64,000 nucleotides of DNA, from assembly GCF_020740795.1 (NCBI RefSeq), contig NC_067285.1, forward strand, positions 22,588,241 to 22,652,240. The letters run 5' to 3'. Shown one piece after another: positions 3,341-51,384 of the stretch. The DNA is from Apus apus (taxonomy: Eukaryota > Chordata > Aves > Apodiformes > Apodidae). A model generated the notes under the pieces. It ran no database searches. It was given only the letters and a program-made list of their open reading frames with translations, and was not told the DNA's origin. The position numbers and the translations under genes were made by a program. Within the stretch, counting starts at the first letter, position 1. Each line of letters opens with the position of its first letter.

Positions 3341-3486
3341 TCTTTGGCGCTGCAAGCACCAGCCGGAGGGAGGCAAGGGGCGGGCGCAGCAGCGGGAGGC
3401 TGCTGGAGGGAGCCGGGGTGCGGTGCTGGGGGCAGGCGGCTCGGGGCCAGCCCCGCTGGGTCACCCCGGCCCTGCTGGGGGCAGGA

Positions 3487-3650: not shown

Positions 3651-4000
3651 TGTAGCGGGCGTCAGGGTGGTGGTTGAGTCCTCCCCCGGCCGTGTGCAGC
3701 AGCGCAGGGGTTACCCCTGGCAGGCGTGTCCCAGGTGGCGAGTCCCGCCGTGGGCAGGAGGCCGCGGGGTCTGTCTTGGCGGGGCGGGGCGGGGGGGCTG
3801 CGCCCAAGCACCGCACCCGCTCCGCCCGCTCCCTTCCCCTGGGCTTTGACCCGCATTCGCAACAGAAGGGCCGATACGTGGCTGCGGCGGGGGGCAGCCC
3901 CGCCGGACCCCCCGTCCTCGCCGTGGGTGGCGGCGGCCGAGCCCCCCCCCCGCCCCCCGCGGCCGCTGCGGGACGGGGCGCCGCCCGCGCCGGGCCCACA

Positions 4001-4014
4001 GCGCCACCTGGCGG
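4001..4014 (-). promoter_or_regulatory. CTCF binding-site motif
   Basis: Read on the minus strand this is CCGCCAGGTGGCGC, which fits the published CTCF core CCRSYAGRKGGCRS at every position. The flanking bases (GCGCT after the GGTG) also fit the longer motif. It sits inside a CpG island between the DUSP13 cluster and sequence leading to the expected DUSP29. A boundary role is an inference. Occupancy cannot be seen from sequence. Confidence 0.6.
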
Positions 4015-4110
4015 CGCGCGCGGCCGTGCGGGGTGCGCCGGGCGCGGGGGGAGCTGCGCGTGCTGCAGCGTGAGAGCTGCGGGCTGCGCTGCTTACAGAC
4101 GTGCGGCATC

Positions 4111-5160
4111 AGAGCAAGGGGCAGCTTTCCCGGTAGTGCCGACCAGCATTTTAAAACTGCTAAGTTGTTGTTGGTGGTGTTTCTTTTTTTCACCTGAAAT
4201 GGGTCTGTCTTGCAGGTGCTCTCGTGCATCTTCAGCTGTGCCCTTTGCTCTACAGCTGAAAATGGCTGGTTGGCCACAGTCCTGCTGCTGGTGAAGGCGA
4301 GGAGAGTTTTCTTACAGGTGGGAAGCATAAGGAGATGTAGTTCTTGAGCTTGGGACTGGGAACATCTCTGTTGGTAAATCCACTGTTTTTCTTTCCCCAG
4401 GGTTCTATAAGTTGCAATCATATTGTTAGAGTTAATTCGTAACTAAGACAGGCATAGTAACTTTTCTTTTGGGTCTGAAGCATGCTTTCAAACTTTCTGT
4501 TTCTAGTGGCTGTGTTTTTGAACTTGTAGAACAGTCCTGGAGCTCACGAGCAGGTGTCCTTATGCAGGGACTAAAGCAAAGAAGCACTGCAGCACTTCTC
4601 TCCTGCTGCTCAGAGATGTCCAATCCACAGGGTTAGTCCGAAGCAACATCCCTTGAGATGCCCTCCGTGTGAGTGTCAGGTATTCAGTGCTGAATGCTCT
4701 GCTTTGTGCTCTCCTCTAGCCTGGCCTACATAGCAGATGTTCGTATTTCCAAAGAGTGTTATAAAAGGCGCTGAGTTATCTGTCCTGAAGGCAGAAATCT
4801 GCCATGTAGACAGCACTGGGAATGGCAAGGAATGTTTTCCCTTGTTGCTGTGCTGTTCTTGAGCAGCCAGCTCACATGGTGGGGAGTATTCATGCCTCTG
4901 CATTCCTGGGTTTGGTACTAGGAATGCAAACAACTGCCATCCCTAAGCTGGCTTTGTGCTGCGAATCTTGCTGGGAACCAAGAGCCAGATGTGCTTCACA
5001 TAGTTTTCAGGCAGCACTGATCCATCAGATGACAGTAGCTATTGAGTGCTCTTATGGTGGCCCAGAGACAAAAAGATGAAAGCCTGATGCTTGTCAGCAC
5101 CTCTCTTGCTATTCCTGTGTCCCTTCAGTTTTCACTCATAAAAGCAAATGCCAGAGGACA
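4111..5160. other. intergenic, no gene seen
   Basis: Unique-looking, mixed-composition sequence between the CpG island and the likely 3' end of DUSP13B. I see no conserved exon, RNA gene or repeat family. Confidence 0.5.
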
Positions 5161-17800: not shown

Positions 17801-18122
17801 TGACATTTTCTCCTTTTGGATTTGTTTTTCCTTTTTAAATTATCATACATTACTTTTATATTTTTAGCAAAACTATGTTGGAAAAGCTATTCTGACTAGG
17901 AGAGTGAGGATCCCAAGTAGTCATTTACAAAGAAACTCTGTGTGATTGTAGGAAAAGGGGAGGGGGGGGAAAACCCAGAAATCGTAATTCAATCTTATCT
18001 AAATCTTACACACTTTTAAAACAAAATATGAAAAGTGGTGGGTTTTTTATAATAATGCAAATAATGCAAGGTGCTTTGGCATGATTTGTGATGTTTACAT
18101 TGACAGATCAGAAAGAAATAGT

Positions 18123-18658
18123 TACACAGAATCACGGAATGTTAGGGGTTGCAAAGGACCTCAAAAGATCACTTAGTCCAACCCCCCTATCAGAGCAGGA
18201 TCCCCTAGAGTGGGTCACATGGGAACACATCCAGGCAGGTTTTCAATGTCCCCAGAGAGGGAGACTCCACAACCTCTCTGGGCAGCCTGTTCCAGTGAAA
18301 AAGTGAAAGAGTTTTTCCTTATATTTACATGGAACCTCCTGTGCTCCAGCTTGTATCCATTGCCCTGTGTCCTATCACTGCGAAGAGCCTGGCTCCGTCC
18401 TCCCTTAATGTATTTGCAAACATTGATGAGGTCACTCCTCAGTCTCCTCTCCTCCAAGCTAAAGAGACCAAGCTCCCTCAGCCTTTCCTCATAAGGGAGA
18501 TGTTCCACTCCCTGAATCATCTTTGTGGCTCTGTACTAGACTCTTTCAAGCAGTTCCCTGTCCTTCTTGAACTGAGGGGCCCAGAACTGGACACGATATT
18601 CTAGATGTGGCCTCACCAAGGCAGAATAGAGGGGGAGGAGAACCTCCCTTGACCTATG
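18123..18658 (-). mobile_element. CR1 LINE fragment, minus orientation
   Basis: The left end (CACAGAATCACGGAATGTTAG) is the reverse complement of the bird CR1 3' end with its ATTCTATG-type repeats. It runs through the typical CR1 segments: AGGTCC, the GTTGGACTA complement, CTGTTCCAGTG, TCCTCCAAGCTAAA and GTGGCCTCACCAAGGC. The element's sense strand is therefore minus. It is 5'-truncated near 18658, the usual state for CR1 copies. The minus strand keeps remnants of the end of its ORF2 with stops. CR1 is the dominant retrotransposon of birds and other reptiles, and this supports an avian source. Confidence 0.9.
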
Positions 18659-18659
18659 A

Positions 18660-20796
18660 AGTTGTTGCAGTAGAAGGAAAATCTTTACATGCCTATCAGG
18701 CAGGATCTTGCTGTGGTTTCATAGAAAACAAAGATGTCTTGTCCAGGAACTATAAACAGCCGAGAGCAATACTGGCAAAAAAGCACTTTCTTCGAAATAT
18801 TTAGGGTACACTTGATGAAGTCCTGTTATAAAATGATAAAGCCTCATGTTGTGCAACTTTCCTTTGCCGTTACAGACATTCAAAAAACATGAGGTCCACA
18901 AAATAGGTGTTTTACCCTGGGATAACACCTGAGCCACTGCTACTAGATCAATTGGTAGAGCTGGAAGAATTAGGCAAGCTTTCAAATAAGCAAGAAGGGC
19001 TCTATTTTTTTCCAATTATGCCAACCAATTTAATTATACACTGCCTTTACTGACAACTCTTGCCTATAGACCGGCACAGCAACACTGCTGCTACTGAAAC
19101 GCTGTGATTTTTCATATTGCCAGAAGATGGCAGAAGAAAGCAATCTTGAATGATTTAAAAATATACAGTATACACATGACTGCCCTTTAAAGGGAACTGT
19201 TACTGAGATTCTAGAAACTGCACTGGTTGGATGGATGAAAAATGTGAAGTGTACTGAGTGAATTAAATTGGTGTTGACCTGAGTGTGCACATCAAACTAT
19301 CTGCAATAATCAGACAGGTTGGGGGCTTTGAGTTAACCGACCACTTTACTCCTCCTCCCCATCCAGAGTGATGTTTCCCTTGTATCCTTCTTAAAAATAA
19401 AGTGAAGAAAACTTGACAAAGTTATTTGGCATCAGTGAAAATTACCAGGTGCTTATCAGGTGATAGGAGTTATTTCTGAATGGCAGAGCTGTGCAGACAG
19501 ATGCCAGGGGTCCCAGCAGTGGGGTCCCTGTGGGGTCTTGGCCCCTGTGGCACTGTGCTGGCCACCACAGCTGGTGGGAGCTGTGAGGTGGAGCGGGCTG
19601 CGGGCCTGCTTTTAGTTTACATGGCACCTTTTCCACCTGTCTTATGAATCAAGTTTCCACCATATCCAGCACTAAATATTGAATAAAACATGGGCATCCC
19701 AGCCTGGGAGTATGTTTGTCACTGTGACCCAATATTCATTTCACAGTGGCAGCAAGGAGGAGGATGACAAGGGATCAGGAGTGAAGAAGCAAAAGAAAAA
19801 TATTTAAGGCAACTTTCAACTGTTGTGACAATGAGGAAAAACAACTGATGATATAGACGGGCATCACCTGGGCAGGAACACCCTTGCTCCTTGAGATGAA
19901 TCTAACACAGACCTCAGTGCCCTCATACCTACCCCCTCAGGATCCTACTTGGCTTTCTAAGGTATTGTTCATTATACTATTCCTTTTGGTAAAATAACTT
20001 TCTTTCAAGCTTGGTTCTGTGGTTAGCAGCAGGAATCATCTTCATCTTACAAGGAAAGTGAGTGATGGAAGCTCTGCAGCTGCTCGCAACACCAGCATCC
20101 AGGAGCTTTCTTTTGCCCTTTGGCTGCTCTCCTCTGAGTTAAGGGACCCCACCTGCTATTCAGAAGTAGATTAAATTTTCCTGAAAATGAATAGGTTTAA
20201 CAGAGCACAACATTATTTAGCATCTGCTTATCCAGGACATTCTAGAACCTGGGTCCTTTTCCCAGGTTTCCAAAGCACCTCCAGGGTATGCTTAATCCTG
20301 CTCTGGACATGAGGTGAGCAAGCACATACTCTTTAAACATTGAGGTTTCAGTAGGTATGTCTGTGGAGGAAACAACACTCTATAGACATCTGCTCGCCTT
20401 CTATGCTTGAACGGAAAATCCTTCCATTTCAACACTGAAGCATTAACTTCAGATGTTAATTTTACGTACTTTTTAGTGAAGACAGTAATGAGAAACAGTT
20501 CAGCACAGGTAGTTTATCCTCAAAACAAAGGCAAATCAGGGCTGTCCAAGAATATGAAAGTTCTGTGTGGGAAGGATTATGTGGAGTTTTCAGTTTATAT
20601 TCTCTTGAGTGAGGTGTATATACCCGAGAGGGAAAAAGCATCTGCACAGATGAGTTCAGAAGGGAGGAAGCTCCTGCACAGCTGAGACAATCACAGTTGG
20701 GGTGCCAGACCAGGTCTTGAGAGGGCTACACCAAATTTGGCTCTGCTGCTTACTCTTGACCATTGCCACAGATAAGGGCTGAGACTAGGTGGATCA
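18660..20796. other. intergenic between two CR1 copies
   Basis: No gene, RNA or repeat family recognised. The sequence is mixed-composition and unique-looking. A 92-codon plus-strand frame near 20407-20685 has no recognisable content. Confidence 0.5.
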
Positions 20797-20798
20797 GT

Positions 20799-20953
20799 CA
20801 TAGAATCAATCATACAATAGTTTGGGTTGGAAGGGACCTTAAGGATCATCTAGTTCCAACCCCTCTGCATGGGCAGAAACACCTCCCACTAGACCAGGTT
20901 GCTCAAAGCCCCATCCAGCCTGGCATTGGACACTTTCAGGGATGAGGCATCCT
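20799..20953 (-). mobile_element. short CR1 LINE 3' fragment, minus orientation
   Basis: The stretch starts with CATAGAATCAATCATACAATAG, the reverse complement of the CR1 terminal repeat. It continues with GGGTTGGAAGGGACCTTAAGGATCATCTAG and the CCCATCCAGCCTGGC and CAGGGATGAGGCATCC blocks. It is a roughly 155 bp 5'-truncated CR1 copy, inserted in the same orientation as the one at 18.1 kb. Confidence 0.88.
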
Positions 20954-23900
20954 AACCCAAAAGATAAAATCTGGTCTGAAATGTAGGAGCCCAGAGCCAG
21001 GTCAGCTCATTTGGGCCCTTTAATCCATTTCTGGGACTGTCAGACACAGGAGGGTGCTCACTGGCTTGCTGACTATTGGAAAAGGAAAACATGCCACAGA
21101 ACGGAGATGCTTTCTTATTAAATCCCTGTCCCACTTTCTTCATCTGTGGGGACAACAGACTGTGTTAGGGTCTGCTGATCATGCCTTCCTAGGGTGCAAA
21201 ATAATTGTGATCACCAAATAACTCCATTTCGTCCCCCTGTTAGCTTAAGCATCCTGTTGAATCACAAATTGGGTGGTGACAGGCACGACCTCTATGGCTA
21301 AAAGCTCAGTTAAAACTCTCCCTGCTTGCAGAGGTGCTGGCATGGTGGCGAGACTCTCTTCACGCACATGCAGCCTGCTTTCTGCCAGTTACCTCTTGTG
21401 CAGATGTTGCATCTTGACTTTACAGCTCACCTACCTGGCTACACATGCTTTCATAGCATGATCTGTTAGCACCAACCAGTCCCCTTTGCAGAGACCTGAA
21501 GCATGCCACCATTGGAATGCAGCCTGCTACCCCCAGAGGAAATAAAGACAAAATCCTGATCAAAGAGAGAATCATGAGAACACAGGTACAATTATGACTT
21601 TCTAAATCTTTATCTTCAGTCTGTATTTGATGTCTGGATAATAAGTTGACCAGTCTCTTACATAAACCTCAGGCAGGTTAAACACCACAGAGGAAAACAG
21701 TTGTTTTCCTGAGCTGCATAAAAGAGGGTGTGAGGGACCTTGCCATCCCTACTTACAGCCTCTGTGGCTGAGGATTTCATGCAGTGTCTCTTCCTAAGCC
21801 CTTCAGATCTGAGTTTTAAGTATGGTTGATTCAGCTGCACTTCTTTTTTATTTCTAAAAAGAATGGCTTTCTGTTTGTACTGCTTGCATTTTGTCATGCT
21901 GCTTTACTTCACTCACCGTTTTCCTGAGTTTAGTGAAAAAGCTGTCTGTAAAAACAAGAATGGAAAAAAAAAAAAGAAAATTATCAAATACTTTCTTTTT
22001 TATTTATGGGGGGAGAGATTTTTCAAAGGCAGAAAGGAAAGTCTATCAGATTATGCACCTGAGTACTATTTATGCCCTTGAAAATCTTCCGCTTACAGTG
22101 CTTAATTGGTCTGTGCAAATCCATTGCCAGAAGAGGTAATTGACCATTTTTATAGAAGGATCAGTAACAAAAACACTCTGGGCTATTGTTCTGGAAATAA
22201 AAAAAAATAGGAATTATAGAAAGAATATGTTTCAGGGCATCAGCCAGCCTCTCCTGAAACCATTCAAATTCACTTGGTGAAAACAACAGCAGACACAATG
22301 AAATGAGTTTTATGTGAAGAATTGAGATCTCAAATGTGATATTATGCAGAAGGTAAAGAGTCTGTACTAGATAAGTAACAGCTCAATGTGATATCAAGGG
22401 TGCACTTTGATTTTGATGAATGTTAAAAGAACCTTTAGCCTTGAAAATAAAGAGGATAATTTCTCTCTAGGCAATGGCTGCTCATGAAAGTAATAAAATG
22501 AGAGCACTGGAGCCCTAATTTTATAGTGCTTTTTAAATGATTTTCAAATGGTCCAGCTGCTTTGTGCCACAATAGCACACGGCAGAGATATTTACGCTGG
22601 CGATAACAAGCATGCATCAACCTGCCTGAGCTGCTCTCTGCAGGCAGCCTTCGTTAGGTGAAACACACACGGAAAGCTGATACTTGCCAATGCAGATTGA
22701 TCACAATTACACCGTGGCTGCAGCGATCCTGGGAAGCTGCTTTTTCCACCAGACAACTTGATTGTTTTTCTTGTCTGCGTCTCGCCTGTGAAGCACAAGA
22801 TGTACGTGGCCGGTGATGCTGGTTCTATTTTGACACTTGAGAGCCTGCCAGCTCTGTATGCCTGTTAGGCCATACCATCCTTGGCAGACTTCTCTGTTCA
22901 GAAATAAGCGGGTAAATTTAGCCCTGGGTTGCACCACTGGTTTTTGGTGGGAGTTTCCCCAAGTATTAATTTGGCCTCAGTGTTGGTGTTCCAATGTTGT
23001 GCAGTGTTGTCTTGCATGGAAATGTGCACACGATGCAAGTAAGCTCTCGACAAATGCTACGTAGTTCTTCTGAGATGCTGAACTGCCACCAGCATCTTTC
23101 CTCAGGTATTTTACTTCTGCATGGCTAGGACTTAAGTCTAAAACTATTACTTCTTTTCCAGGACCTGCTCTAAGATGAGAACTACCCAAGGACAGTTCTT
23201 CTATGCAAGCTTAGCTTGTCAATTTGAATAGTAATTTCAAAAGTCTGATTGGTATTTCATCTTTACAGTCCTCTTTCATTTGTGAGACAGTGACAGAAGA
23301 CAGCGTACTGGGGGAAACTTTTCTTCTGAGCAAGCAGAATAGGGTTGGAAGTCCAGGTGCTTCATGAAATATTCCCATAAAATTAAAGAATTCGCCTCTT
23401 TGTGTTCACCAGCACTAGAGAGAGACAGCACTATTTGTATAAAGAAAAGTTTGGTGGGAATGGGGAGTTCTGAGTATGACAAGAAGGCTAATTTATGGCT
23501 GTAAATGTATTACATTTGCTGTAAATCTCAGGTCGATAAAGATAAGATAGATCTGGGCAGAGGGCATGGTGGGATAAAGGTACCTCTGAAAAACCCCAAC
23601 CATCAAGCTGACCCATGAGCACATATTGTCACCAGAATGGAAAGTTCTGCCCCCAGTCTGGGTAACTTCTTGTATGTGTTTGACTTGAACATTTTCTCAC
23701 CTTTTAATTTGCAGATCCCAATGGAACAAAAAAGGTTACCATCTTTTTATGTACAGAGATATCCTTATGAGCTTTAACTTTAAACAGAGGCTTATTTTCT
23801 CTTGGAGTTGAGTTTTATGAGTTTACATGAGCAGAATCGACAACAAACTGGGAATACATCCTAGAGGAGTATCTAGCACATTTGTTGCTTCCATTTAGCC

Positions 23901-24048: not shown

Positions 24049-24296
24049 TTACTGTCGCTTTGATTTTATTTTTTTTAATTTATTTTGTAAGAGTTTACAT
24101 AGATGTATACTGTATCTCGATTCAATGTCTAAATCCTGCAGGTGTTTCAGGAACCCTCAGCTTGATGAAATTGCTCGCTACTGGATAACTCTTTGGATAC
24201 CATTGCCCAGAGGAATGTGATGGAAGCTCATACGGTAAGCCAGCACAAGGGAAGCAGATCTGCTTTTTCCAAGAATACAATGAACAAAGATTTTTC
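24049..24296 (-). pseudogene. DUSP relic, exon 3 with catalytic loop
   Basis: After the acceptor TTCTGTTTTGAAG the minus strand reads GKIFVHC (the Gly split by the intron) and continues with [14 protein letters not shown], so the phosphatase signature HC-x5-R is complete. The frame then hits TAG (24178-24180) and TGA (24157-24159). It resumes as GFLKHLQDLDIE, aligned with [13 protein letters not shown] of DUSP13A, and ends at a TAA at 24049-24051. There is no frameshift within this exon. Confidence 0.85.
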
Positions 24297-24985
24297 CTTC
24301 AAAACAGAAATGAATGCATGTGATGCTGTTGCAGGCTGCACAGGATTGTGCCGTGGCCACAGATTGCATATGTTTGTACTTCTGTCTCGCTTGCATCTCA
24401 TCTCATGTCATCTCTGAGAGATCCAATTTACAGCAGCTGAGATAAAGTAGCCTCCATGGTATTACATTCATCCCTTTCATAAATCAAGAACCACTTTTTT
24501 TTTTGAGTCCAGAAAGAGAGGAAAACACAGGGCATTAGGCTTTGTAAATGGCTCATTGGCATGTCTCTGCAATAGCACTTTGCAGCTTTTTTTTTTCAGA
24601 CCAGAAACAATGTTTGTGTTGTATAGAAAAACTTTTTAAAAAATCATTGTTTTTTGAGTGGTAACTCAGAATCTTTCTCTCCACTCACCAAAACACAGCG
24701 TAATTCCCTTTTAGAGTTGTGGGCTTTTTTTTTCTCTCCTGTTACAGAAGATGCACTTTGATTTATATTGTGTGATCCTTGCCTCTGACGTGGACATAGT
24801 TTTTGTGGATTACTCCTTATCTTTCAGGATCCTGCTTCACCTGATTGAGACAATGCCTGTAAGTAGATAATTAGGCTTACCCAAGTGGTTGAGTCAGGTT
24901 CAGTTAATGCTGCTAAAGTAATTTGTGACTGCTTAATGACCGTGCTGCCTAAGAGCAGTGGCTTTCCACCAGGAGAAGGACTCAC

Positions 24986-25187
24986 CATTGAGCCTTGTGA
25001 ATGTACTCAGAGAACAGAAATGTAAGCTGAGGTGAAAGTCAATCAAGTCAATTAAGTCCTCTGCAGGTATTGCATTTCCTGGCAGTGGGCAGTTCGGTAT
25101 CCTTTGATTGCCCATGCAAAATGTGCAGCACTTGGTGCATGGCTGACACCAAGCCTCTTCAGGTCTTCCTTGTTATGGACTATGGAG
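24986..25187 (-). pseudogene. DUSP relic, exon 2 with frameshifts
   Basis: After the acceptor CTTTCCACAG the minus strand reads HNKEDLKRLGVSHAPSAAH, which aligns with [19 protein letters not shown] of DUSP13A with identical spacing from the splice site. The later part appears in a second frame (AIPAEDLIDLIDF, 25073-25035, compare [13 protein letters not shown]) and the end in a third (FLFSEYIHKAQ, 25020-24988, compare [13 protein letters not shown]). It ends at a clean GTGAGT donor. At 202 bp it is shorter than the 218 bp intact exon, which fits small deletions. Confidence 0.75.
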
Positions 25188-27826
25188 CTGTGGAAAGTCA
25201 TGACAAAAAACAGCTCAATGTATGCTGTTCCTTTGTAATGTATTCCTGTCTGCAGAGCCCAGTGCCCCCCATGCTTTGAGACTTGTTGTGTAAGAAAGAG
25301 TAATGTAGTAAAATAAAGGTTAAACATTGTGATTCCTGAATATATTCATAATAGATGCAGAAAATGCAAAATTCCACGTAATTTAATTTCTGTAAAGACC
25401 ATTTCCTGTCTAGAATTCCCAGTAAATTTAACAAGTGTTACAGGCTCCTTTTGACTACAAAGGCATTGGGAATTACTGGCCCAAACACCTTACCAAAATT
25501 CACTTCACAAGGTAGCTCAGGTCTTCCTATAATTGGACATAAAATACATACGTTGAAAGAACATGCTCAGGTTTTAGCAGAGCTTGTAACCATTTTGCCT
25601 CAGCATGTAATTGTATGATGTTTCTTGCTACAGTGGTAGTAGCTTACTAATCTGGCTAAACTCCAGCTGATAAACATGCCTGCTTAAAATTCAGCATGGA
25701 GTTTGATTTCTGCAAGATATTTTACATCTTGTGCCCTCAGCTGCTTATTATGTAGCACTTTAAAAAATATTTTACCTTTGAACACAAAGGGTCTTGGCCT
25801 TGAGTATCAGCAATAGCTGACAGTCAGACAAATATTTAATAATTAGTTTTTTGACCACTTCTAAGTCCTCCCTCCCAGGGATCCCTCCCAGAATCAAAGA
25901 CATCATGTGAAGTCAGCCATCCCTACTTTATTTTAGTAGAGATACTAAACTCATTTTAAAAGGCTGAACATCAAAATTCTGATAATAGTCATAAGGAGAA
26001 ACGTGTCTTATAAACTACAGCTTTAATTCCAGATGGATTTTTAATTTCCAAGTAGCTCCTCAGAAGCTGCACATAACTGGTTCCATAGAAATAGGCAGTG
26101 ACAACTGATGGTAGCAATTCAGGTTATTTTAGCTATGGCACAAGTGCTGATGCTGGCACAGGTTCACTTAGTAACAGAAACATCCTATGTTTATTGACTT
26201 CACTGAGTACTGGATTTGGTCCTAAATGCAAATACTGTCTCTCTTCCCCATTCACACCTCAGGAAGATCCCATGAAACCTTATTCTCAGGTGTTGTTGAT
26301 GCTTATCTTATTGATGTTGGCAGAGTAAAGAAAATTCTATCTATAGCACCTGATAAGCTTCCAGTTTCACTGATTGCAGTCTGTAACTCTTTGTATTTAA
26401 GCTCAATATTTGTGATCCACTGTTGCATTTGCAAACAAACCTGTTTATGTTTTTATTCCTGCTAGCTGAATGTTCTGAAAGTTCATCTTTTCCTTACTAC
26501 ATGTACACACTGTTGTTATCTAAACATTTTTCTCCCACCATTCATTTTTTTCCCCGATAGAATGTGATTGAAAATAAATACTCAAGAATAATTTGTAGCA
26601 TATGTACCCACAGGCGTTAAAAGGATATCTTAAAACTGCACTTAGAAGTATATCTAAAATCCAATGATGGTGATAAGACAATACAATTTCAGTGACTTTT
26701 ATAGATTCTTTAATCTTTGGTTTTAATATGTGTTGGGCTCAATTCTGCAAATCTTTATTTCTCCAAAGGGTTCTAATAAAGTAAATAAGTTAATTTCCAA
26801 GTTTAGTTATGAGGTTTAACTAGAAAGGCAAAGGTTGGTTTCTCCCTCTTATCATCAAGGCAGAAGCTCAGTGAAGTACTGCATTTTGCTGGCTTCTGCC
26901 TTTCCCCAACCACGGGCAGACCAGCACAACGATGGTTCTGGGTGCTCAGTGCCTAGTGGTGGACAGCCACTCCCTGTGTACTGTTCTCATCTGCAGGGTG
27001 TGACACTTCTGATTAGAAATTAAGTAAGATTCGGAAGCAGGCTGCAATTTCTTCTCTAGTTTTATTTCCTCAACATCGTCTAGCTCATCTTTAGTCTGTC
27101 CTTTTTTGTAGCTAAAGGAATGTCCACTTTTAGCTGTAATTGATGGACAGTTAGCCAAAGGATTATTAGTTCCTTCTGTTTCTCTTATTTAGGATTTATT
27201 GTAATTGCACTTTCCAGATATTTCAGTAAGTTTGCAAACTGCTCATGGTAAAAAGAACTTGTTTTGGCATAACATTGGGCACTAGGCATGTTGAGTGCAG
27301 ATGACTGATGATTGTGCTTTCTCCATGCTCCAGAGTGAAACAACCATTGCATAAGTTTGAGAAATAAACAGTGAATTCTTCTGTCATTCGGAATATCCGA
27401 ATATTTTGTCAGAAAATTCAATTGCAAATCAAGAAAACAGCAAAAATGGGAATACTTTCTTTTTAATGTGAACATTTCTATTCATTTTTCCAGTTAAACA
27501 GGAAGAGGTAAAACCAATTGTAGTTCAATTTTAAGGCTACTCAGGATCATGAGTCAGTCTTGTGCTTCGTATGGTAAATGTTGCAGCATTTATAAAATCT
27601 ATATGTTGAATAACTATAAAATAACAAAAAGTGGTAATCTTGCTCTCTTTTTAATTACTTGTATTCTGTTCTGTAGGTTCTTTCTTTAATGTATAGTCCT
27701 TTTGCTTTCTTCTATGCTAATTGTAAGTCTAACAATGCTAACTAAATAAAGTAGTTGGACAGCACATGTTAACAAGTACTATACTCCCCAGCCCTTCAGA
27801 ACAGCTCAGCCTCAAATAACACTTAC

Positions 27827-27950
27827 ATACCGCCTGTGTAGAGATTACGCCACTCTTCACCCATGTGATTTCATGTCACTTTACAGATGTCCAAAATCTC
27901 TGGCAGCTTTTGGGCAAAGGAAGTGCCAGGCTCAGAGCATTCCTGGGTGG
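27827..27950 (-). pseudogene. DUSP relic, exon 1
   Basis: The minus strand reads NHMGEEWRNLYTGG directly before AT|GTAAGT. The intact DUSP13A exon reads [14 protein letters not shown] before CT|GTAAGT. The residue count from NH to the donor and the phase-2 split are the same. The Trp and Asn-Leu are kept, while the key Asp-Val-x-Pro is lost. A TGA sits immediately upstream of NH. Upstream residues (LPEILDI) resemble the hydrophobic start of the domain only weakly, so the 5' limit is uncertain. Confidence 0.65.
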
Positions 27951-37200: not shown

Positions 37201-39590
37201 ATTTCACTCCCCAGTCTGTTTTCAGGATTTGATTTTTGGGATGGTTAGCTACTGAAGATGAATTGAACTAATTGAATTCTGGTACATTGAGATCAATACT
37301 GAGACAGAGTTTTCTGGTCTTCTGCACTATGAATGTATTTTTAACATGGAACAATTTTATCTGATTAGCACATTAAGTTTGCCTTTTTTTTTTTTTTCCC
37401 CTCCCCCCTCTAATAAACTTATTTTCTCTCTTGAAAAATAATTATGATTCACTGATTTGATTATGTTAAAAAAAACACACAACAAGCTTTAGGCACTCTT
37501 AACAAAGCAGAACTTTCCTGGCCACCTACCATTAAAAGGCTGAGAACAAGATCCTGGAAGGTGAGTTAGCTTCAGGACTGTGCTTAAGACACTGACATGG
37601 TGACCTGTTCTGACACAACTCTGTAGCCTGCCACAGTTATTTCTGCAGCAAATTTTAATTTTGGTTTTTACCACTTTTTCAGACACAAGCAAATGTGGCA
37701 ATCTGTGGTAAATTGTACCAACTTGACACCTGAAGTGTGCCAAAAGTTGTGCCTGACTGGTAGCTGGTGAACAAAAATTCATGGCAAAAAAAGCAAAGAA
37801 TGCACCTAGTAGAGAAGCATGAAGTCATTTAACTGAATTGCCTTGCTCTCCTAAAGTTTTGTTTTCTTTGTCAGAGGACTGCTAGTTATTTTGAATATGA
37901 ATACACTGATTGGAAGTAAGCAAAATTACCTCGATTTTCAGCCAGCTTTATTAACAGGTCCATTATTCAGAGGAAGATAATGTCCATTTCAATTTTGTGG
38001 GTGTGGTGTTTCTTTACAGATTCATACGTATGTGTTCTAGGGTTTGCCATTGATAAATTCAGACTTGTCAGTTTTTCATCTAATGCATGTACAGGGAAAG
38101 AAGGGGAACTCTGCAAGGACTGGAATTGCACTTAATTTCTACACTGTTTGCAGAGGCTGCTGAACTGGTAAACAAAGTGAAATAATCCCTCCAATTTCAG
38201 CAGCTCCTTCAGGAAACTACACATCTGTTTATAAAAGTAAATGCAGGATGGAACAGACTGCGTAGAGATAAGCATCTTTGAACCAGTATTAGGGCATTTG
38301 GTAATGAGCAGAAGTTCTTACCACTTGTTTCTGTTCCAAATATCTGTATTTGATCAATTTGAAACGTATATAACCCATTACAAGTGAGATTGTACAACTG
38401 TGGACATTTGCCTTAGATTGCTTGATGACTTGACAACCTGATGTAGCTTAGAAGCATTTTGAAATGCAAAATTTCCTTGTTTCACTGTAGCTGCACAGGG
38501 GTGAGGATTGCAAAAGATCCCCCTTTTTTTCCCCCTTCTGTGAAGAAAGAATACAAGGCCCAATTCTCTGAAGAGGCTAGTGTCATTAACTTAATGAAAC
38601 TTCACTGGCACCTGTTTTTTACTTCAACTTAGACCTGCCTTGGACCTCATAGTAATTATGTCATCAACAACACAAATTCTGCATGTTTTTCAGACCCCAC
38701 TATGGTGCTGCAAAGGGCTGGCTGCTACCACAGTCAGCTGATGTACAAAATACATTTCTTTCTGGAGTAATTTGTTTCTAATTTGTCTGTCTCCTTCTAT
38801 CCCATCAGTTTGTATTATGCATAGGCTATGGAGCACCTGAAGTTACGGTGCCTTGTTGAAGCTTTCATAAGTCATCTCTGCTGTTCACATCTGTGCTTTG
38901 CACCACCTTGGATGAACGGCCAGGTGCTGTCAGCCAGCTGCCAGTTTTCAGATTTATTTTTTCTACAGACATCAGAAAAGATTTAACAGTGCAAAAAAAC
39001 CAGTCCATCTAAAAAGAAGATAAATGTTTTGTAACATTTGCTTGATCTGAAAATTGATAGTCTGAGGGTTCTGCAAGTTTTCCCTGCTTTTTTCTCCTGA
39101 CATATGCCTTTAAAATTAAGGAGGGGGTTATTTTCATGACTACACTAGTGGGTTTTTTAACAGTGACAGGATCACTCTGTATTTATTTTTTTCATTTAAA
39201 AATCAATTAAAATCTATTTAGTGTGGTTAGAAATTTCTACCTCTATTTGATGTCCCCATTGTAGTAAGCTTACTTCCTAATGATGTGTAGAAAGATCACA
39301 CTGTAAAAAGGTATACTGTAGTCACTTTCAGGAGTACAGTTTTCTTTGTTGTTTTTGTTGGTTTTTTTTAAACCTTTACTCTGGTATAAGCATGTTCTAT
39401 TCTTCAGTTAGAAATGCAAGATGCAGTTAGAAAAGACACCCATGCTGCTGCATTCAGCTGATCTCTGCTGGGATCCTGGAAGACTTAATTTCTTGTGACT
39501 TCTTTTTTCTCTAAAACAAACTTGCCACCCACCTCCTCTGGTCTTTGAGTTTCTTACACAGCTCAAAGGGATTGTGCCTAACTTCTACTA
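34201..39590. other. non-coding interval between divergent DUSP13A and SAMD8
   Basis: AT-rich, no conserved coding exon. DUSP13A reads left and SAMD8 reads right, so upstream regulatory sequence of both genes should lie here. Visible features are a 19-bp tandem duplication at 36773-36810, a T-run at about 37385-37399, and short A-runs. Confidence 0.5.
36773..36810. repeat. perfect 19-bp tandem duplication
   Basis: The unit TCAACAGAAGGCATCCTAT occurs twice head to tail with no mismatch, followed by TCATCAG, the start of a third imperfect copy. It is most likely a local slippage duplication. Confidence 0.9.
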
Positions 39591-40039
39591 TTTAAGACTT
39601 TCATTCCCACGGCTCCAGGGACGAGGCAGCCCAAGGAGCTATTTGTGCGTTGTACAGCCTGGACCTAGTGAGGAGTTAAAGGAAGGGGACGGTATGGAAA
39701 GCTGCCCGCAGGCCCACGAGGCCCAAGTCAGGAGGCAGCGACCCTTCCGGGCTTTGAGCCCGTATCGACAAGGCCCGCGGTGCCAGCCCCGCAGGGCCCC
39801 CGCACCTGGCGGTGCCCGGCGCCGCCACCAACGGGCCCGCAGGACGCCGCCCCAGGCCGAGGCGGGGCCCGAGGCCCGGAGCGCGGAGCCGCGCCCCGCA
39901 CCGGCCCCAGGGGCTGCAGCCCCGCCGGGCCGCGGGGCCCTCCCCGGGCAGCCGGGCCGCTCCTGCCGCCGGAAGCGGCGTCCCCGCCGTCCCCGCCCCT
40001 TCCGCCGCCCGCCGGGCGCCGCCGGCTGCCACTTCCGGC

Positions 40040-40154
40040 CGGGTGATGGGGGCTGGCGGTGGCGGCGGCCGCTGCGGAGAGAGGGCGCGGAGGAGCCGCC
40101 GCCCCGGGCCGGGCCCTGCGGCAGCGCCGCGCAGCGCTGCTGCCCTGACGGCAG
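40040..40154 (+). other. SAMD8 non-coding exon 1 (approximate start)
   Basis: The 3' end is set by the donor GACGGCAG|GTGAGGC at 40154/40155. The 5' end is only inferred from the ETS sites just upstream. It would splice to the acceptor TGCAACAG at 45936, which lies 27 bases before the start codon, giving an intron of about 5.8 kb. Human SAMD8 likewise starts with a non-coding exon. Confidence 0.5.
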
Positions 40155-40265
40155 GTGAGGCGGGCCGGGCGCCGCTCCTCGCCTGCCCCCGGAGTCGCGC
40201 GTCCCCCCGCGGCGCAGCGCGCTGGGAGCGCGGGTCCGCCCCGCTGCTGGCTGGGGACGTGGGGG

Positions 40266-40317
40266 CCGGGGGGCTGCCCGGGCCGGGGGGCTGCCCGGGC
40301 CGAGGGGCTGCCCCGGG
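40266..40317. repeat. three tandem 17-bp GC repeats
   Basis: CCGGGGGGCTGCCCGGG occurs twice exactly (40266-40282 and 40283-40299). A third copy follows with one substitution and one inserted base (40300-40317). It lies at the start of SAMD8 intron 1. The G-runs could form a G-quadruplex on the plus strand. Confidence 0.85.
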
Positions 40318-40812
40318 CGCTGCTCCCGCCGCAGCGGGGCCAGGGCGGCGTGTGGGGCCCGGGCTGCGGGCGGGCGCGGCGGGTCCTGGGGGGAAAAGGC
40401 AGTTTCGCTGCATTGGCTGGCCTGGAGGAGAGCGGCTTTATCTGCGGCAGGAGGAGGTGGCGGGCGGGGTGCCTCTTGTAGGGTCTGTGTGCACTAAAAT
40501 CCGCTCCGCCGTCTTTCCTGCGCCTGTCTTTCATGGACACGTCTCCCGAGGCGTGACCGTCCCCCCTCTCGGCGGCGGAGCCCGGGGTGCCGGCGCCAGC
40601 TGCTGAGGAAACCAGTCTGCTGAGGGCTGAAAATCGCGCGTCTTCCTCCATTGAGTTAACTCTGTCTGCCGTGGGGAGGATGAAGTGTCTACGCTTTTGT
40701 GTCTGGTTGCGTCGATTTGGTTCTGAACTTTGAGAATTGTGCGCTTCAGCAGCTGAGCAGCGAGTTAAAGCCCTCGCGAGGGGGCGGGGGCTGTGGCGGT
40801 GGTTGCGGGGAG

Positions 40813-41067
40813 ATGGCGGCGCGGCCGCCGCTGGTAGCGGGGCTGCTGGGGGAGCTGGTTGGGTTTCCCGTCGCTGTGCCAGCCTTCGCAGGCAGCACGC
40901 TGCTTCTGGAGGTGATGCCGAGCGCTTGTGCTTCGTGCCAGCCTTGCGGTTGGGTATCAAACCCGTCGCACCGGGTCAGAACAGATACTCCGCTTTCTTG
41001 CTGCTTTCTCCGCCGGCGGTGTGAAGTCGGTGGGTTTTCTGCGGGCAAAGTAGGTAGTTTTGAGTAG
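40813..41067 (+). other. YY1-type motif with an 84-codon ATG frame
   Basis: AGATGGCGGC at 40811-40820 matches the YY1 motif that often overlaps start sites and start codons. The ATG in it opens an 84-codon frame beginning MAARPPLVAGLL, with a possible donor (CTGGAG|GTGATG) about 100 bases in. It could mark an alternative first exon of SAMD8 or a small upstream frame. No homologue is recognised. Confidence 0.2.
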
Positions 41068-44000: not shown

Positions 44001-45963
44001 TGTATTCCAGGTGCTAAGATTACTAGCAAACGTGCTTTTTACCCTTTGAGCTACAGGACTGGGACTAAAAGAATAGTCTGGAGTTTGTTTGTGTTTGCGT
44101 TTGTTTCTTTTGTTGTTTTCTTTGTCTTTCCCAGTTGGTTAAATGTTCTGTCTTTGACAGCATTTAAAACCAGGAGCAGGTCCTATCAGGTACATCCTAA
44201 AGTTAATGTAGACTTTCTCCCAGGTCCAGCCCATTCAGTGGTGACCTTTGGTGGGTATGCTTACTCAGTGTTATAAGGTCACTTTTACTGTGTGTTTGAT
44301 AAGGGTTGATTTTTATTCCTTCGCTGCCAGACGAAGAAACTGGCTGGCATTAGGCTACTTGTCTTGTTATAAATGAACAGAATTCTTGTAGGTTAGGCTA
44401 CGGAGGGTTTCCTGCCTTTGCCCTCAGAAGTTGCTTTAGTTAGAAGATAAATCAGTAAGTCGAGTGTGTTTTTGGTAAGTCTAAATTCACTGCTTTTAAA
44501 AAAATTGTCATTATTACAATGGTATAAGTAACAATTTTTTTCAGTATTTCATCTGTATTTCTGAGTAAGGAAATCTGGAAGCCTAGGTTCTATTCTATTC
44601 GAGGTCCAGCAGCTCGAGTTTGTGTATTTGTTTTACTGGAGTAAGATAAAAAATATATAGTACAAAAAAGGTCAGTTAACTAATTGTTAATTACAAATTA
44701 AATGTTATTTTCTTTAGTTCATAGCTATGTGAGCCAACTAGTTGTTACAGTTGTTCTGAGCAAGACTTTCAAAAATAGTAAGGAGCATAAAAATGAGAAA
44801 ATACCCGTTTATATGGAGAAGGAAGAGTATGGTAAATGTGGAGTTAGTAGTAGGGGTTTATGAATGTTTTGGCAACTATTCAAATGAAGGTATTAAAGTT
44901 TATTTACATGGTGACTATATATGAAGTTGTAAGAAACTAAAACAGTGCTTTAAGTACATGTTGTTAATACGCAATCAGTATCTTCAGAAGTGCCACCCCC
45001 TTAATTCTTTTAGAAGAGCAGCTTTGATTTGTGTGCTGATTTTTCTTCTAAACTATTTCTTTTACACTGCTGGGAAATCTCATAGTACAATTTTAATCTT
45101 CTCTGATATAGAACAAAATATTGTGTGGTCCTGTTAGATGTGGGCTGGAAGAAAAAGTTACATCCAATAATTAAGACAAGAGCTACTTCTAACAATAGGC
45201 ACAGGAGTTCTTTAAAAAGAAGAAAAGAGCTTCTGTTTTGGGAAGAGCTGTGCCCCTGAGCATTATGTAAAATTTTGTGTTGAATTTTCATGGGGGGGTC
45301 GAGTACGTGCTTACTATATGCAGAAGCTAAATAATAGATTAAATAGGCTGTTTCCTTGCTTTCTTTCAGAAAACCTTGAATCATGTATGTGTCACTAGTG
45401 TACTGTACTATCTTGTATTTTCTGAGATTTGGTTGGCATGATTGAACCATTCTAGTTAATCAGACTTTTTTCAAGTACAAAAGAGCTGTGAAATTGTAGC
45501 TGTTTCTTAGATGGTAGCTGTACATAAGCCACCAAGTATCAATTATGCGCAAATCCATTCTATACTGCAGTGGCTCTTAAATACAGGATAAGCTTTTTAC
45601 TACTTTTACATCACCAGCAGCCTTTCAAAGCTTTTTCATGTATTCTGCGTAACATTCTGTGGTTATTTTTTTTTCTGATTGTTGTTCTAAGTTGTCCTGG
45701 TGAGTTGTCACCTCTATGTGACAAAGATGTTGCTGAGATGCCTTGCCTTCCTTCAAGCAAGATTCTCGAGTCAAGAAAACAGTTGTTGAGAAATCTGTAT
45801 AAAGATAATACATCTTTTTGGTTTTAGTGTGTTATGATGCTATCTGTGAAGATGCTTTGGAATTAAAGCTAATACTGGCATTTCACTAATCTTCATTAAA
45901 CATTCGGGTCTTCTCTCTTTCTCTAATGTGCAACAGGTCAATTCTATTGGTGGATAGAGAAGG

Positions 45964-48900
45964 ATGATGGCAGGCAATAACCACCTTTGCATTCGACGTT
46001 GGACTACCAAGAATGTGGCCAGGTGGCTGAAGGAAGAAGGCTTCTGTGAATATGTGGATGTTTTGTGCAATAGACACAGGCTAGATGGAATTACACTGCT
46101 GACACTCACTGAATATGATTTACGATCCCCTCCTTTGGAAATCAGAGTCCTGGGGGATATCAAAAGGCTCATGTTGTCCATACGCAAACTACAGAAGCAG
46201 CATATTGATGTTCTAGAAGAGCTGGGTTACAACAGTGATAGTCACATTGGCACAGTGTGCCCAAGTATGGGTTCTTTACAGGGTGTCGATTGGTTTTGTA
46301 ATGGTGAAGTACCTCGAGACTATGATGGAGCAATTACTGACTTGAATGGTGATCAGTATCAATATGCAAATGGAAAAAACAAACACTCTACAAGAAGACT
46401 GGACCCAGAGTATTGGAAGACAATTTTAAGTTGTGTGTATGTCTTCATAGTGTTTGGCTTTACATCATTCGTTATGGTTATAGTACATGAGCGAGTACCT
46501 GACATGCAGACTTACCCACCTCTACCAGACATATTTCTCGATAGGTAAGACATTTTCTTTTAAACAAAATAGTAACTTGATGGTTAAAGGATAAGCTGTC
46601 TTGTCTTCATTCTCAAAGTTTAATTTGAAGATGCCTCTGCTCTGGCTAATATTGAAATGCACATCAGTTAGATGCAGAGATTTAGTCTCCTGAAGGGAAA
46701 ATAAATAGAGCTGATGTTCTACCCAGTTTTCATTTAATTCTACATCTTTAGCTAATCACTACACAGGAATTAATTTGTCCATTCCCTCATTCTAGTAAAA
46801 TGAGTCATGGTGAGCTGGCATGGATAAGCAGCCATGTGCTTTTTTCTGAAATCCAGAAGCTGCTATGAAGCTTAACGTGTCTTGATACAGAAAAACTGGA
46901 TGAAGGACGATTTTGGTTTGCCAGTGAGCAAGGAAATTGGAAGGGAATAGCATTGGTACTGTATTTTTACTGTCTTGCCTTGTCAAATTGTTGAACATGG
47001 TTCAGGAAAGCTCTTAAGAACAGACCAGCATCTTTTTTAATAATAGACTATCTGTGTACTAAAATGCTGTTGTGACTTACATAGTACCTGCTCATTTTAA
47101 AAATAAAATATTCCACTTGTGGCATAAAAGAAACACAATAGCAAAGGTGAAATTCTAGTCATCGACTAGATTTAATAGGGTATAAATGCTCCTTTTGATG
47201 AAGTGCGCTTACATCATAGAGAACTTAATTGCCTAGAGAGATCTAAAAGAAAAGATAAAACTGTTGAAGAGTTCAGTCTTTGTGATCTCCTTATTCTGGA
47301 AAGCAGTTTCCATTTTTGTTAATGGTTTTCATTAAGACAGTAATATTTTGAGTAAGTGGTGAGAATCCTCATAAACTTACGTTTATCTCAGCAAGGATGG
47401 CCATATCCAGATAAGTGGAAAAGGGGGGAGAGAATGGGAGCTACGACATTACTGGGTTTTGTTCCCAGGCCACCACCACGGTATTCAGTGGGTGGGAGGA
47501 TGGGAGAGGTCAGAAAGCAGCAGCTCACAAAACAATGTGAGGGGATTATTACAATGCTAGCGTTTGAGCAGCCTTTGCCAGCACTTTGTGTCTCGGGAAC
47601 AAAAAGCTATGAGGAACAGCCTCTCTTGAAGTCTCTCTTTGTATTTTGGTGAAATTGCAGAGTTGGAATTGTTACAGATGCCATACATGTGCAAGAAAGT
47701 CTTACATCTCTTGACAAGCAAGGCTAAAAGGTTTGCATGTAGTGATTATCGCTCAAGTCTAACGTAGAAAACAATTCTACTTTTCCTAATGCTTTTCTTT
47801 GTAGTTCTGCTTCATTACATGTCTAGGGTCTAGGACTTTGCAGTATTTCATTAATTGTGTTAACATGGCAGCATGCTTAGAAGCTAAAGCAGGATACTTG
47901 GCATGATGCAAGTTTGTGTCAGAATGCAAAATGTTGGGAAACACTAGTGGAGGAACACATCCTGTTAGCAAATCACATGTATAAGTTCAGGGAACATACT
48001 AGAGATTTTCTTTTACTTAGTGAATTCTGTGTAACTGTGTGGTGAAAATACATTATTAGAAAGGAGATAACCTAATTTAAAATTAATTACAATTCTATTT
48101 TGTTCAATCTACTAAAATATTTTTTGTTATAATTTAAACTGTTGTCAGACTAATATAAGTTAGTTTTGTAATTAGAACTTTATGTCTTTATTCTCAATAC
48201 TGATAGTACACTTATTTTTTGTAAGTTAACTTTCTTACTTCATCCCTGTTTGTTTTGGGTTTTTTTAGTGTCCCTAGGATACCATGGGCTTTTGCTATGA
48301 CTGAAGTATGTGGTGTAATTCTTTGCTACATTTGGCTGTTGGTTCTTCTCCTTCACAAACACAGGTAGAGTATATAAAATTCAAATTAACTGGTACTTTG
48401 ATTCAGAGAAAGAATTGTAGCAAAAATTTAGGATGATTGTTTAAGACTTCCCAATCAATGAGGATCTTGTAAGCATCTAATATGTCCCTGTTAAAATGGA
48501 TTAGGGAGGATTTAATCAAGAATGGGGAGCGGTGAATCTTTTTACCAGATTTATATGCAATTTCCTTCAGAACGTATGTATTTCAGAGAGTCGTCAGTAT
48601 ATATTCCCATACTATAACAAATTTGTGTATAAGAAAATCCTCTAAGAATGAAATTCCACAGGTTGACTGAGCCAGTGTAGCAGCTTGCTGTCACTGAAGG
48701 GCAGAAAACCCTTTTGTGTGCATATGTATTTTAAGTTAAATTTTTACCAATTCACCAACAGAAGGTATGAGTGCCAAAGCCTAATGTAAGTGTAACTGCA
48801 GGGGAGTGGAGCTCTACCTTTTGGTGACAGTAAGCTTGCTGCAGTGTCTCATCCTGTCAGGCAGAACCATACCACTACAGTGCTAATTTTAAAAAAATAT

Positions 48901-51384
48901 ATTTTTTTTTTTTACTGTGCAACTTGCAACAATGATGAAGGGACTTGATGGGATCAAGCTGGAGTATGGAAAATGTTTTTATCGTGATTCCTTATTTAAA
49001 AGTATAACACGTTAGGATTCTTGCACTCAGTTTCTGTGTACTTTTCCCAGATCCATACTTCTGCGAAGGCTGTGCAGCCTCATGGGGACAGTATTCTTAC
49101 TACGTTGTGTTACAATGTTTGTTACCTCACTTTCTGTGCCAGGACAGCATTTGCAGTGTACTGGAAAGGTAAAAATTTAAAATTACATTATTTTTCCTGT
49201 TTCCTTTTTATTTATTTTTTTAAATTTTATTTTACTTACAATACCATTAGGCATGTTGTGACTGCAGTATTAGATGTTTGTCTGTAAGCACAGTGTTGTT
49301 TCTCTCCTGTTCCCCTCCACATCTCTTCATTAATTGCTGTTATGCAGACAAGCATCCTTAGGGGTTTTAGAAGCACTTGGCACTTTGAAGAGGAGATAGT
49401 TATCAGAGGAGGGGTGTTCAGTATATTTCATGATGTAAACTGGAGAGAATACATGAGTGAAGTGTGCACTTAAAGATACTGACTTCATGAAGTAAAGCTG
49501 AAAGTTGAGTAATCATTTCTTTGTCTTGTTGGATACATGGTTTTGGAAAAACACAACCCTGTTTTTGCTGCACCCCTTCTCATAAGGGGTATTCCATACA
49601 ACATGGGATTTTATGCTTTTATCCTAACTTTTAGTTGGAAGCAGTTTGAGCTGAATATGTTGGAAGCTTGACAATGACACGTTGGTAGGTTGAATACATT
49701 CTAAAAAAGGTGGCAGACTCTATGTAAATCACTTGCAACAAAATACTTGCTCTGAATTCCAGTATTCATCAGAGGGATGATGAATACAATTAGTAATTGT
49801 AGTTACTAAGGTAACTCACTGCCACAATACTATTCAGTGATGTGCTAACCTGCATTTTAATAAAAGACCCAACATGATAAATGGTATCAAAAACACATAG
49901 TGCTATACAGCTTTAAAGACATACTGTTTGAGCAGTGGGTTTGGAACTTACTCAAAGTTAATGTCACTGTGTTTTAGTTGTATGGCAACATTTGGGCAAA
50001 ACTTCAGCGTGCATTTGCAATATGGAGTGGCTTTGGAATGACTCTGACTGGAGTACATACATGTGGAGATTACATGTTCAGTGGCCACACTGTTGTCCTG
50101 ACCATGCTCAACTTCTTTGTCACAGAATGTAAGTATGGAGTGTCAATACTTAAATGTCCTTAAGTGTTGAGAATATGTATTGCTCGCTGTCAGCCAAGGG
50201 TGTGAGAGTGTAAACACTTAAGTGTCCTTAAGTATTAAGAATATGTGCTGCTTTATTTCCTCAAAGATTTTCAGAGTGTAACTTTTAAGCCAACAAGTAT
50301 AAATTCAGATTGCTGTGCTCTTCTTAGGTTTGTGACCATTTACTTGCAGACAGGAAGGGAGCAGCACCACATGGATTAATGGAAGGATGAATAAGGCATA
50401 TTTGAAAGAACTTGTGGGAGAAAGAAATTAGAAAGGCTTTCTAGCTTGCTACTGGGAGAACACTGGAGAAGATCTTTGATTGTCTTTTCCTATACACTTC
50501 CTTAGGTATTTGCCACTGACTCCTATCAGGCAAAATACCCAACTAGGTAGCTGTACATCTAATATAATCCAAAAAGCCAGAACACCAAACCTCATAATGA
50601 TTGAAACAATATTTCTCTTCTGTAAATATGAAGTGTGAGTTGATACATTATGTAGCAAGCTAAGATAATTTGAGTTAATCTATGATGGAATGAATACAAT
50701 AAGAAAGTAGTGTATGCTTTATGACCTTTTCTCCCTTATATGGAAAAGGTGTGGTTTAAAGTAAAAGAAGTTAGTTGAACAAAGAATTCTGCTTTGTATG
50801 ATCCTAAACCATTTTAGGATGCTCTATTAATCCAGAAAGGCATAATAGCTGTATTTGTAAATGAAGTCATGAAATGATAGGCATTTATGACAAGGGTGGT
50901 TGTTTTAATTGGGTTTATTGAACCTGTAGGTATAAACAGTATTTACATATGAAGACAATAACTTCATCCCATTTTTTGATGAAAAATCTGTATAAAAACT
51001 TTCTGTATCTAGGCCTGGATTTCATAATGACCCAGATTTTTAAGACATTCAAGGCTAGTCACTTTCTGTTTTCTCCTAGATACGCCAAGGAGCTGGAACT
51101 TCTTGCACACCTTGTCCTGGGTCCTGAATCTCTTTGGAATCTTCTTCATTTTGGCTGCACATGAACATTATTCTATAGATGTCTTCATTGCCTTTTACAT
51201 CACTACAAGACTGTTTTTGTATTACCATACATTGGCTAATACTAGAGCATATCAACAGAGTAGGAGAGCAAGGATCTGGTTTCCAATGTTTTCTTTTTTT
51301 GAATGCAATGTTAATGGTACTGTTCCCAATGAGTATTGCTGGCCCTTTTCAAAACCTCTGATACTGAAAAGATTGATTGGCTGA
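45964..51384 (+). CDS. SAMD8: sphingomyelin synthase-related protein 1 (SAM domain-containing 8)
   Basis: Five coding exons join to 416 codons plus stop: 45964-46544, 48269-48364, 49051-49168, 49978-50128 and 51080-51384. All introns are GT-AG (donors GTAAGA, GTAGAG, GTAAAA and GTAAGT). The product is the ER enzyme SMSr, a ceramide phosphoethanolamine synthase. Residues 9-75 form the N-terminal SAM domain, followed by a linker and about six membrane helices from residue 153 onward. The motif PPLPD is at 185-189. The likely catalytic residues of this lipid phosphatase/transferase family are His302 ([10 protein letters not shown]), His345 and Asp349 (HEHYSID). Human SAMD8 has 415 aa and is near-identical from the first helix on. 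Two ATGs lie in tandem (45964 and 45967). The human start matches the second, so the protein may begin MAG. The exon-2 acceptor is at 45936. Confidence 0.96.
46545..48268 (+). other. SAMD8 intron 2
   Basis: Runs from GTAAGA to a T-rich acceptor TTTTTTAG. No exon-like or repeat content recognised. A 98-codon frame at 47356-47652 has no known domain. Confidence 0.8.
48365..49050 (+). other. SAMD8 intron 3
   Basis: Runs from GTAGAG to CTTTTCCCAG. It contains an A/T run near 48891-48914 and nothing else notable. Confidence 0.8.
49169..49977 (+). other. SAMD8 intron 4
   Basis: Runs from GTAAAA to GTGTTTTAG. AT-rich, nothing else notable. Confidence 0.8.
50129..51079 (+). other. SAMD8 intron 5
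   Basis: Runs from GTAAGT to TTCTCCTAG. It holds a diverged direct repeat of 37 bp at 50148-50184 and 50216-50252. Confidence 0.8.
50148..50252. repeat. diverged 37-bp direct repeat
   Basis: ACTTAAATGTCCTTAAGTG and the bases to 50184 recur at 50216-50252 with a few substitutions (offset 68 bp). A local duplication just inside the exon-5 donor is the simplest explanation. Confidence 0.8.

Follow-up and report, generated by a model that had tools for sequence, protein, structure and literature searches.

The present analysis concerns a stretch of 64,000 nucleotides from the genome of Apus apus (contig NC_067285.1, labelled C5; C5:22588241-22652240), referred to as the window, and more particularly a disabled gene of the DUSP13 type that lies within it. 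The window and the sequence below its start contain a tandem array of five DUSP loci, four intact and one dead, and the phosphatase genes found in this array are carried by the minus strand throughout. Along this strand the order is DUSP13A, the dead gene, an intact paralogue designated X, DUSP13B and DUSP29, with a gene named SAMD8 preceding DUSP13A. The dead gene consists of three collinear DUSP13-type exons of the minus strand, distributed over 27915-24049, of which the following remnants are recognised:

27827..27915, minus strand: remnant of exon 1 (aligned part only), profile score 39.9, z 6.1
24986..25187, minus strand: remnant of exon 2, profile score 49.2, z 10.4
24049..24296, minus strand: remnant of exon 3, with a DSPc match and a readable active-site loop HCILGKSRS

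Exon 1 reads ..KLPEILDICKVT up to a premature stop (TGA at 27873-27871) and continues with NHMGEEWRNLYTGG. Exon 2 begins with SIVHNKEDLKRLGVSHAPSAAH.., is interrupted by a first frameshift located between the blocks ..RTAHC and AIPAEDL, proceeds through AIPAEDL.., a 9-bp in-frame tandem repeat and ..FHLSLHFCS, and resumes as EYIHKAQ following a second frameshift just ahead of EYIHK; its length is 202 bases, versus 218 in exon 2 of DUSP13A. Two premature stops occur in exon 3 (TAG at 24180-24178 and TGA at 24159-24157), before the end stop at 24049-24051. The disablements thus amount to 3 stops and 2 frameshifts, and no open phosphatase frame is left. An earlier note on this DNA, made from the letters alone, had listed a TGA in exon 1, two shifts in exon 2 and two stops in exon 3; this list proved right, and the 9-bp repeat is now added to it.

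Both introns of the dead gene are present with GT-AG ends. With the exon border marked by a slash, the donor of exon 1 reads AT/gtaagt (phase 2) and the acceptor of exon 2 ccacag/C, while the donor of exon 2 reads ATG/gtgagt and the acceptor of exon 3 ttgaag/GA (phase 1). These splice sites and phases agree with the exon edges of DUSP13A, X, DUSP13B, DUSP29 and DUSP26, so that the phases proposed previously, 2 and then 1, hold by their match to DUSP13A. A processed pseudogene (retrocopy) is ruled out, since two introns are retained. The similarity to DSPc, the HCxxGxSRS loop and the three-exon domain with phases 2 and 1 place the dead gene in the DUSP3/13/26/29 group of atypical dual-specificity phosphatases, as this group is described in the available text of PMC7828806. 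The retention of the introns, the position in tandem to the parent family, the disablements and the relaxed codon positions described below are those of an unprocessed pseudogene.

Genome-wide searches, which covered 1.10 Gb in 110 contigs, listed 42 matches to the Pfam domain DSPc, five of them in the array. The match falling on exon 3 of the dead gene (24133-24300, E value 8.3e-6) encloses one TGA and one TAG, and the same exon translated with the letter X at the stops reaches 37.4 bits, for a Pfam cut-off of 33.5. All three exons were also searched with profiles built from intact genes only, using a frameshift-tolerant alignment on both strands. A first scan covered 162 kb with profiles from five bird genes and a second one 242 kb with five bird and four human sequences, DUSP3 being left out; two bird rows of the first scan carried small errors, at the first residue of exon 3 in DUSP29 and at the end of exon 2 in DUSP26, which were corrected for the second. 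In either scan, each exon yielded five places above background: four belong to the intact genes of the array, and the fifth, which ranks behind them for every exon, is the dead gene, the sole broken one of the five. Over 242 kb, the scores of the dead site and of the sixth-ranked place were 39.9 and 30.4 for exon 1, 49.2 and 30.0 for exon 2, and 128.7 and 36.6 for exon 3; over 162 kb, the corresponding values were 42.4 and 29.2, 46.3 and 30.7, and 134.8 and 37.2. When 24049-27950 was shuffled 200 times with its dinucleotides preserved, the score of the real sequence was never reached, whichever exon was considered (z 6.1, 10.4 and 29.7 for exons 1, 2 and 3). Exon 1 of the dead gene also appeared among five exon ends in a minus-strand motif search, but the motif had been loosened to admit this very exon and is thus not independent. 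The exon profiles and the shuffles, and for exon 3 the DSPc match, agree with the three minus-strand exons that the earlier note had placed here. The outcome that the note had named as refuting, a lack of similarity to DUSP exons above background, did not occur for any of the three, which exceed both the sixth-ranked place and the shuffles.

The extent of decay was estimated by codon position at sites that are invariant among four intact bird genes, the comparison of each of the five intact genes to the other four serving as a control. Second positions differ at 25-29 of 88-90 sites in the dead gene (28-33%), versus 4-7 of 93-96 (4-7%) in the intact controls, and first positions at 11-14 of 56-60 sites, versus 3-7 of 59-63. 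Taking positions 1 and 2 together, the number of neutral substitutions per site (K) is estimated at 0.25 (0.15-0.37). Simulations of neutral decay at K 0.25 give a mean of 2.7-3.0 stops, and 3 are seen. At the second positions of exon 3 where DUSP13A and DUSP26 agree, 39 of 50 survive in the dead gene. Because the active-site loop, both splice pairs and these second positions survive, the dead gene would once have been functional.

Several aspects of the decay nevertheless fit less readily with a gene that drifted neutrally for a long time. Third positions, for which few sites are available, show no excess over the intact genes. The estimate of K splits into 0.15 (0.02-0.31) for first positions alone and 0.33 (0.18-0.50) for second positions alone, and at least 3 stops also arise in 11-16% of the simulations performed at K 0.1. 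Moreover, second positions are changed at 11 of 50 sites in exon 3 versus 27 of 61 in exons 1 and 2 (p 0.016), and all 8 core splice bases are intact, an outcome with a chance of 0.15 at K 0.25. The milder decay of exon 3 is not predicted by uniform drift, and the poorer alignment of exon 2 may be its cause. Together with the survival of the splice bases, this difference could hint at a lingering use of the exons, neither point being strong.

According to the available text of PMC2911116, neutral rates per site per year amount to 1.23e-9 in the ancestral bird, 1.91e-9 in chicken and 2.21e-9 in zebra finch. At the two modern rates, a K of 0.25 corresponds to ~113-131 million years (My) and the range 0.15-0.37 to ~70-195 My, while a single lineage accrues 0.17-0.20 over 90 My, the date used in the same text for the split between Galloanserae and Neoaves. 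As a rough central guess, the gene died before or near this split, an age that leans old because all of the excess divergence is assumed to postdate the death of the gene. The amount of decay therefore points to an old loss rather than to a recent one in Apus apus. The loss is perhaps common to many or all modern birds and, if it is indeed that old, a remnant is to be expected in many or all of them.

With regard to its relatives, exon 3 of the dead gene finds its best match genome-wide in exon 3 of the adjoining DUSP13A (66.2 bits, 59% over query residues 4-64), followed, among 16 matches including itself, by DUSP26 on contig C27 (49.7), DUSP29 (49.6), X (49.2) and DUSP13B (48.7). With bird DUSP13A the dead gene shares 45.6% of 147 readable sites, and its identity to X amounts to 35.4%. 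The trees rest on a hand-made protein alignment of conceptual translations, in which the dead gene carries the letter X at stops and gaps at shifts. For the fitting of columns, two residues were omitted from both DUSP3 rows and one from exon 1 of human DUSP13B; exon 1 of DUSP3, which was not located, was gapped, and the active-site position of human DUSP13A was entered as the letter X, the crystal chain being a mutant. The best maximum-likelihood tree of all exons places the dead gene with bird DUSP13A, and this pairing is supported at 78.7/82 when exon 3 is used alone. The approximately unbiased (AU) test rejects a sister relationship of the dead gene to X (0.003), to DUSP13B (0.030) or to human DUSP13A alone (0.049), and is compatible with a placement by bird DUSP13A (0.624) as well as by the whole DUSP13A pair (0.804). 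Viral contigs searched with DUSP13A exon 3 yielded 76 pattern matches and no confirmed relative.

Other comparisons weigh against a particular kinship with DUSP13A. Among solved structures, DUSP26 matches exon 3 of the dead gene best (51.3 bits), followed by DUPD1/DUSP29 (48.7), DUSP13B (42.8) and DUSP13A (33.1); the first four letters of this query were foreign to the sequence, and all alignments shown begin at residue 5 or beyond. The dead gene is 36.3% identical to human DUSP13A versus 42.0% to human DUSP26. Using all exons, the pairing with bird DUSP13A is poorly supported in two analyses (43.6/51 and 45.7/53). Placements that the AU test leaves standing include DUSP26 (0.185), the stem of DUSP13A and DUSP26 (0.286), DUSP29 (0.131), the stem of X and DUSP13B (0.060) and DUSP3 (0.062), as well as X when exon 3 is taken alone (0.096), and the Shimodaira-Hasegawa test rejects no placement at 0.05 (X 0.075, DUSP13B 0.088). 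The branch leading to the dead gene is very long (1.9) and artefacts of attraction are therefore possible. On balance, DUSP13A appears to be the closest relative of the dead gene, an assignment that is not decisive.

We consider it very probable that the dead gene is an unprocessed pseudogene of a DUSP13A-like atypical dual-specificity phosphatase, derived from an old tandem duplication. Such a duplication would have occurred inside the array SAMD8 - DUSP13A - dead gene - X - DUSP13B - DUSP29 and would have given rise to a gene endowed with the three-exon structure and the active-site loop of the family. Its reading frame would subsequently have been lost, followed by a near-neutral drift over a long time, and no phosphatase would be made from it now.

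A far less likely alternative is a continued splicing of the dead exons into a noncoding 3' untranslated region (3'-UTR) of read-through DUSP13A transcripts, their sequence being partly kept as a splice platform. The exons do follow immediately after DUSP13A on its strand, their splice sites are canonical in all four cases, and the available text of PMC11274236 describes, for the MDSP transcript, a long 3'-UTR composed of exons 4, 5, 7, 8 and 9, best studied in mice. However, 8 core splice bases would survive by chance in about 1 of 7 cases, and exons 1 and 2 of the dead gene are heavily changed. A recent duplication of DUSP13A or X, in Apus apus or its close kin, might be suggested by the fact that the dead gene adjoins DUSP13A and is matched best by it, but the divergence makes this very improbable. 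Outside the exons, blastn against the four intact genes finds nothing better than an E value of 0.18 (plus strand) and the introns do not align; in exon 3, the nucleotide identity of the dead gene to DUSP13A (63%) is on the level of that between DUSP13A and DUSP29 (64%) or between DUSP13A and X (63%), and the divergence at second positions is large.

Nothing was found in favour of errors of sequencing or assembly in a working gene, which may be considered extremely improbable: five disablements are accompanied by relaxed codon positions, no N runs occur in the window, and a DNA search of this genome with 24049-27950 finds a single copy, namely the segment itself. As to a chance similarity of the exon-like segments, exons 1 and 2 are weak when taken singly and no Pfam family is matched by the first 34 residues of exon 2. 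Against the failure of all 200 shuffles per exon to reach the observed scores, and against three collinear matches on one strand, each outscoring everything in 242 kb apart from the intact genes, the likelihood of such a coincidence is negligible. An unprocessed pseudogene resulting from an old tandem duplication remains the preferred explanation.

The intact neighbours of the dead gene, and the synteny anchor that adjoins the array, are distributed as follows:

33762-33605, 33319-33102 and 31976-31777, minus strand: exons of DUSP13A (MDSP), intact, with a spliced frame open from ATG to stop
8959-8799, 7718-7498 and 6300-6074, minus strand: exons of X, an intact paralogue (DUSP13B in the earlier note), with a spliced frame open from ATG to stop
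C5:22569072-22577693, minus strand, 10.5-19.2 kb below the window start: DUSP13B, intact, closer to human DUSP13B/TMDP than X is
-46.4 to -61.2 kb from the window start, minus strand: DUSP29, intact, pairing with human DUSP29 (99.7/99)
45958-46548, plus strand: SAM-domain exon of SAMD8 (Pfam SAM_1, 3.3e-11), the synteny anchor adjoining DUSP13A
51031-51384, plus strand: PAP2_C exon of SAMD8 (Pfam PAP2_C, 9.4e-16)

The gene at 33762-31777 has the human DUSP13 isoform A as its best match in the PDB, with 239 bits versus 194 for DUSP26. The identity of X is less straightforward. It retains an active-site loop, HCAMGLSRS, and among solved human structures none is closer to X than that of DUSP13B, the name under which 8959-6074 had been reported previously. 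X is probably not the DUSP13B orthologue, because the gene below the window matches human DUSP13B better (269 bits versus 230 bits for X) and shares its N-terminal DSLxxxDLxRPKI, whereas the match of X to human DUSP13B begins later and lacks this motif. Accordingly, the earlier view of a dead gene lying between DUSP13A and DUSP13B stands in so far as a DUSP13-type member of the tandem array adjoins DUSP13A, while the naming of X, the neighbour on the other side, as DUSP13B is not supported. Trees built without the dead gene pair the bird and human DUSP13B in two analyses (92.3/95 and 91.5/94) and leave X outside this pair, to which it is joined with 60.3/69 and 77/76. The AU values in the two analyses are 0.049 and 0.056 for X as sister of human DUSP13B alone, and 0.071 and 0.055 for X as sister of bird DUSP13B alone. 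With values of 0.049-0.071, an origin of X as a duplicate of DUSP13B on the bird side, or its grouping with human DUSP13B, is therefore disfavoured and not firmly rejected.

The gene at 45958..51384 (plus strand) is one that we take to be SAMD8, from its pair of domains and from the human neighbourhood. The available text of PMC3436827 gives SAMD8, DUSP13 and DUPD1 together for one block. A stretch resembling a CpG island (39501-41000, GC 0.71, observed/expected CpG 0.86) precedes the SAM-domain exon by ~5 kb and is perhaps the SAMD8 promoter. Another such stretch (3301-4400, GC 0.67, observed/expected CpG 0.72) is located between X and DUSP13B, with no gene start recognised beside it. The segments 18120-18660 and 20795-20960 bear a resemblance to the 3' ends of CR1 retroposons, and an Rfam search of the window matched no family.

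Human DUSP13 is unusual in that its annotation, according to the available text of PMC11274236, assigns two separate reading frames to a single locus, and the portions of the literature surveyed on DUSP13 paralogues, duplication and loss in birds describe no third DUSP13 locus. The human locus may represent a reduced form of the present array, X perhaps having been lost in mammals. The history of the locus is richer than the earlier note had it, because X represents an additional intact gene and the human arrangement is possibly a reduced one. The occurrence of an extra intact gene and of a dead one between the two DUSP13 frames offers a checkable history for this muscle/testis phosphatase cluster, in which a simple naming would fold the intact phosphatase gene X into DUSP13B. 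The dead gene itself belongs to an ordinary kind, the tandem unprocessed pseudogenes. A more daring scenario, to which we would give little credence, is that of an ancestral amniote array with five DUSP13-type genes (DUSP13A, a DUSP13A-like gene now dead in birds, X, DUSP13B and DUSP29), from which mammals would have lost both middle ones, exons 4-6 of mammalian DUSP13, situated between its two frames, being putative spliced relics of one of them. Exons 4 and 5 of mammalian DUSP13 are described, in the same text, as 3'-UTR of the MDSP transcript. Should this scenario be true, the "one gene, two frames" organisation of DUSP13 would be what remained after the death of an in-between gene whose splice sites are still used.

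Compared with known members of the family, the dead gene appears closest to DUSP13A (human structure 5xjv; bird gene at 33762-31777), which likewise consists of three coding exons with phases 2 and 1 and belongs to the same array; the block GFLKHLQ.LD is common to the dead gene and the bird DUSP13A. It differs from DUSP13A by its broken frame and by introns that match no better than chance; bird and human DUSP13A are 65.8% identical to each other, well above the values obtained for the dead gene. DUSP26 (human structures 2e0t and 5gtj) shows 40-42% identity to the dead gene, the bird DUSP26 gene residing on another chromosome, C27. DUSP13B (TMDP, human structures 2pq5 and 2gwo) shares both the array and the exon plan of the dead gene, and its status as a sister is rejected by the AU test and not by the Shimodaira-Hasegawa test. 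Similarly, X, the next gene downstream, occupies the same array and displays the same exon plan as the dead gene, from which it differs in being intact.

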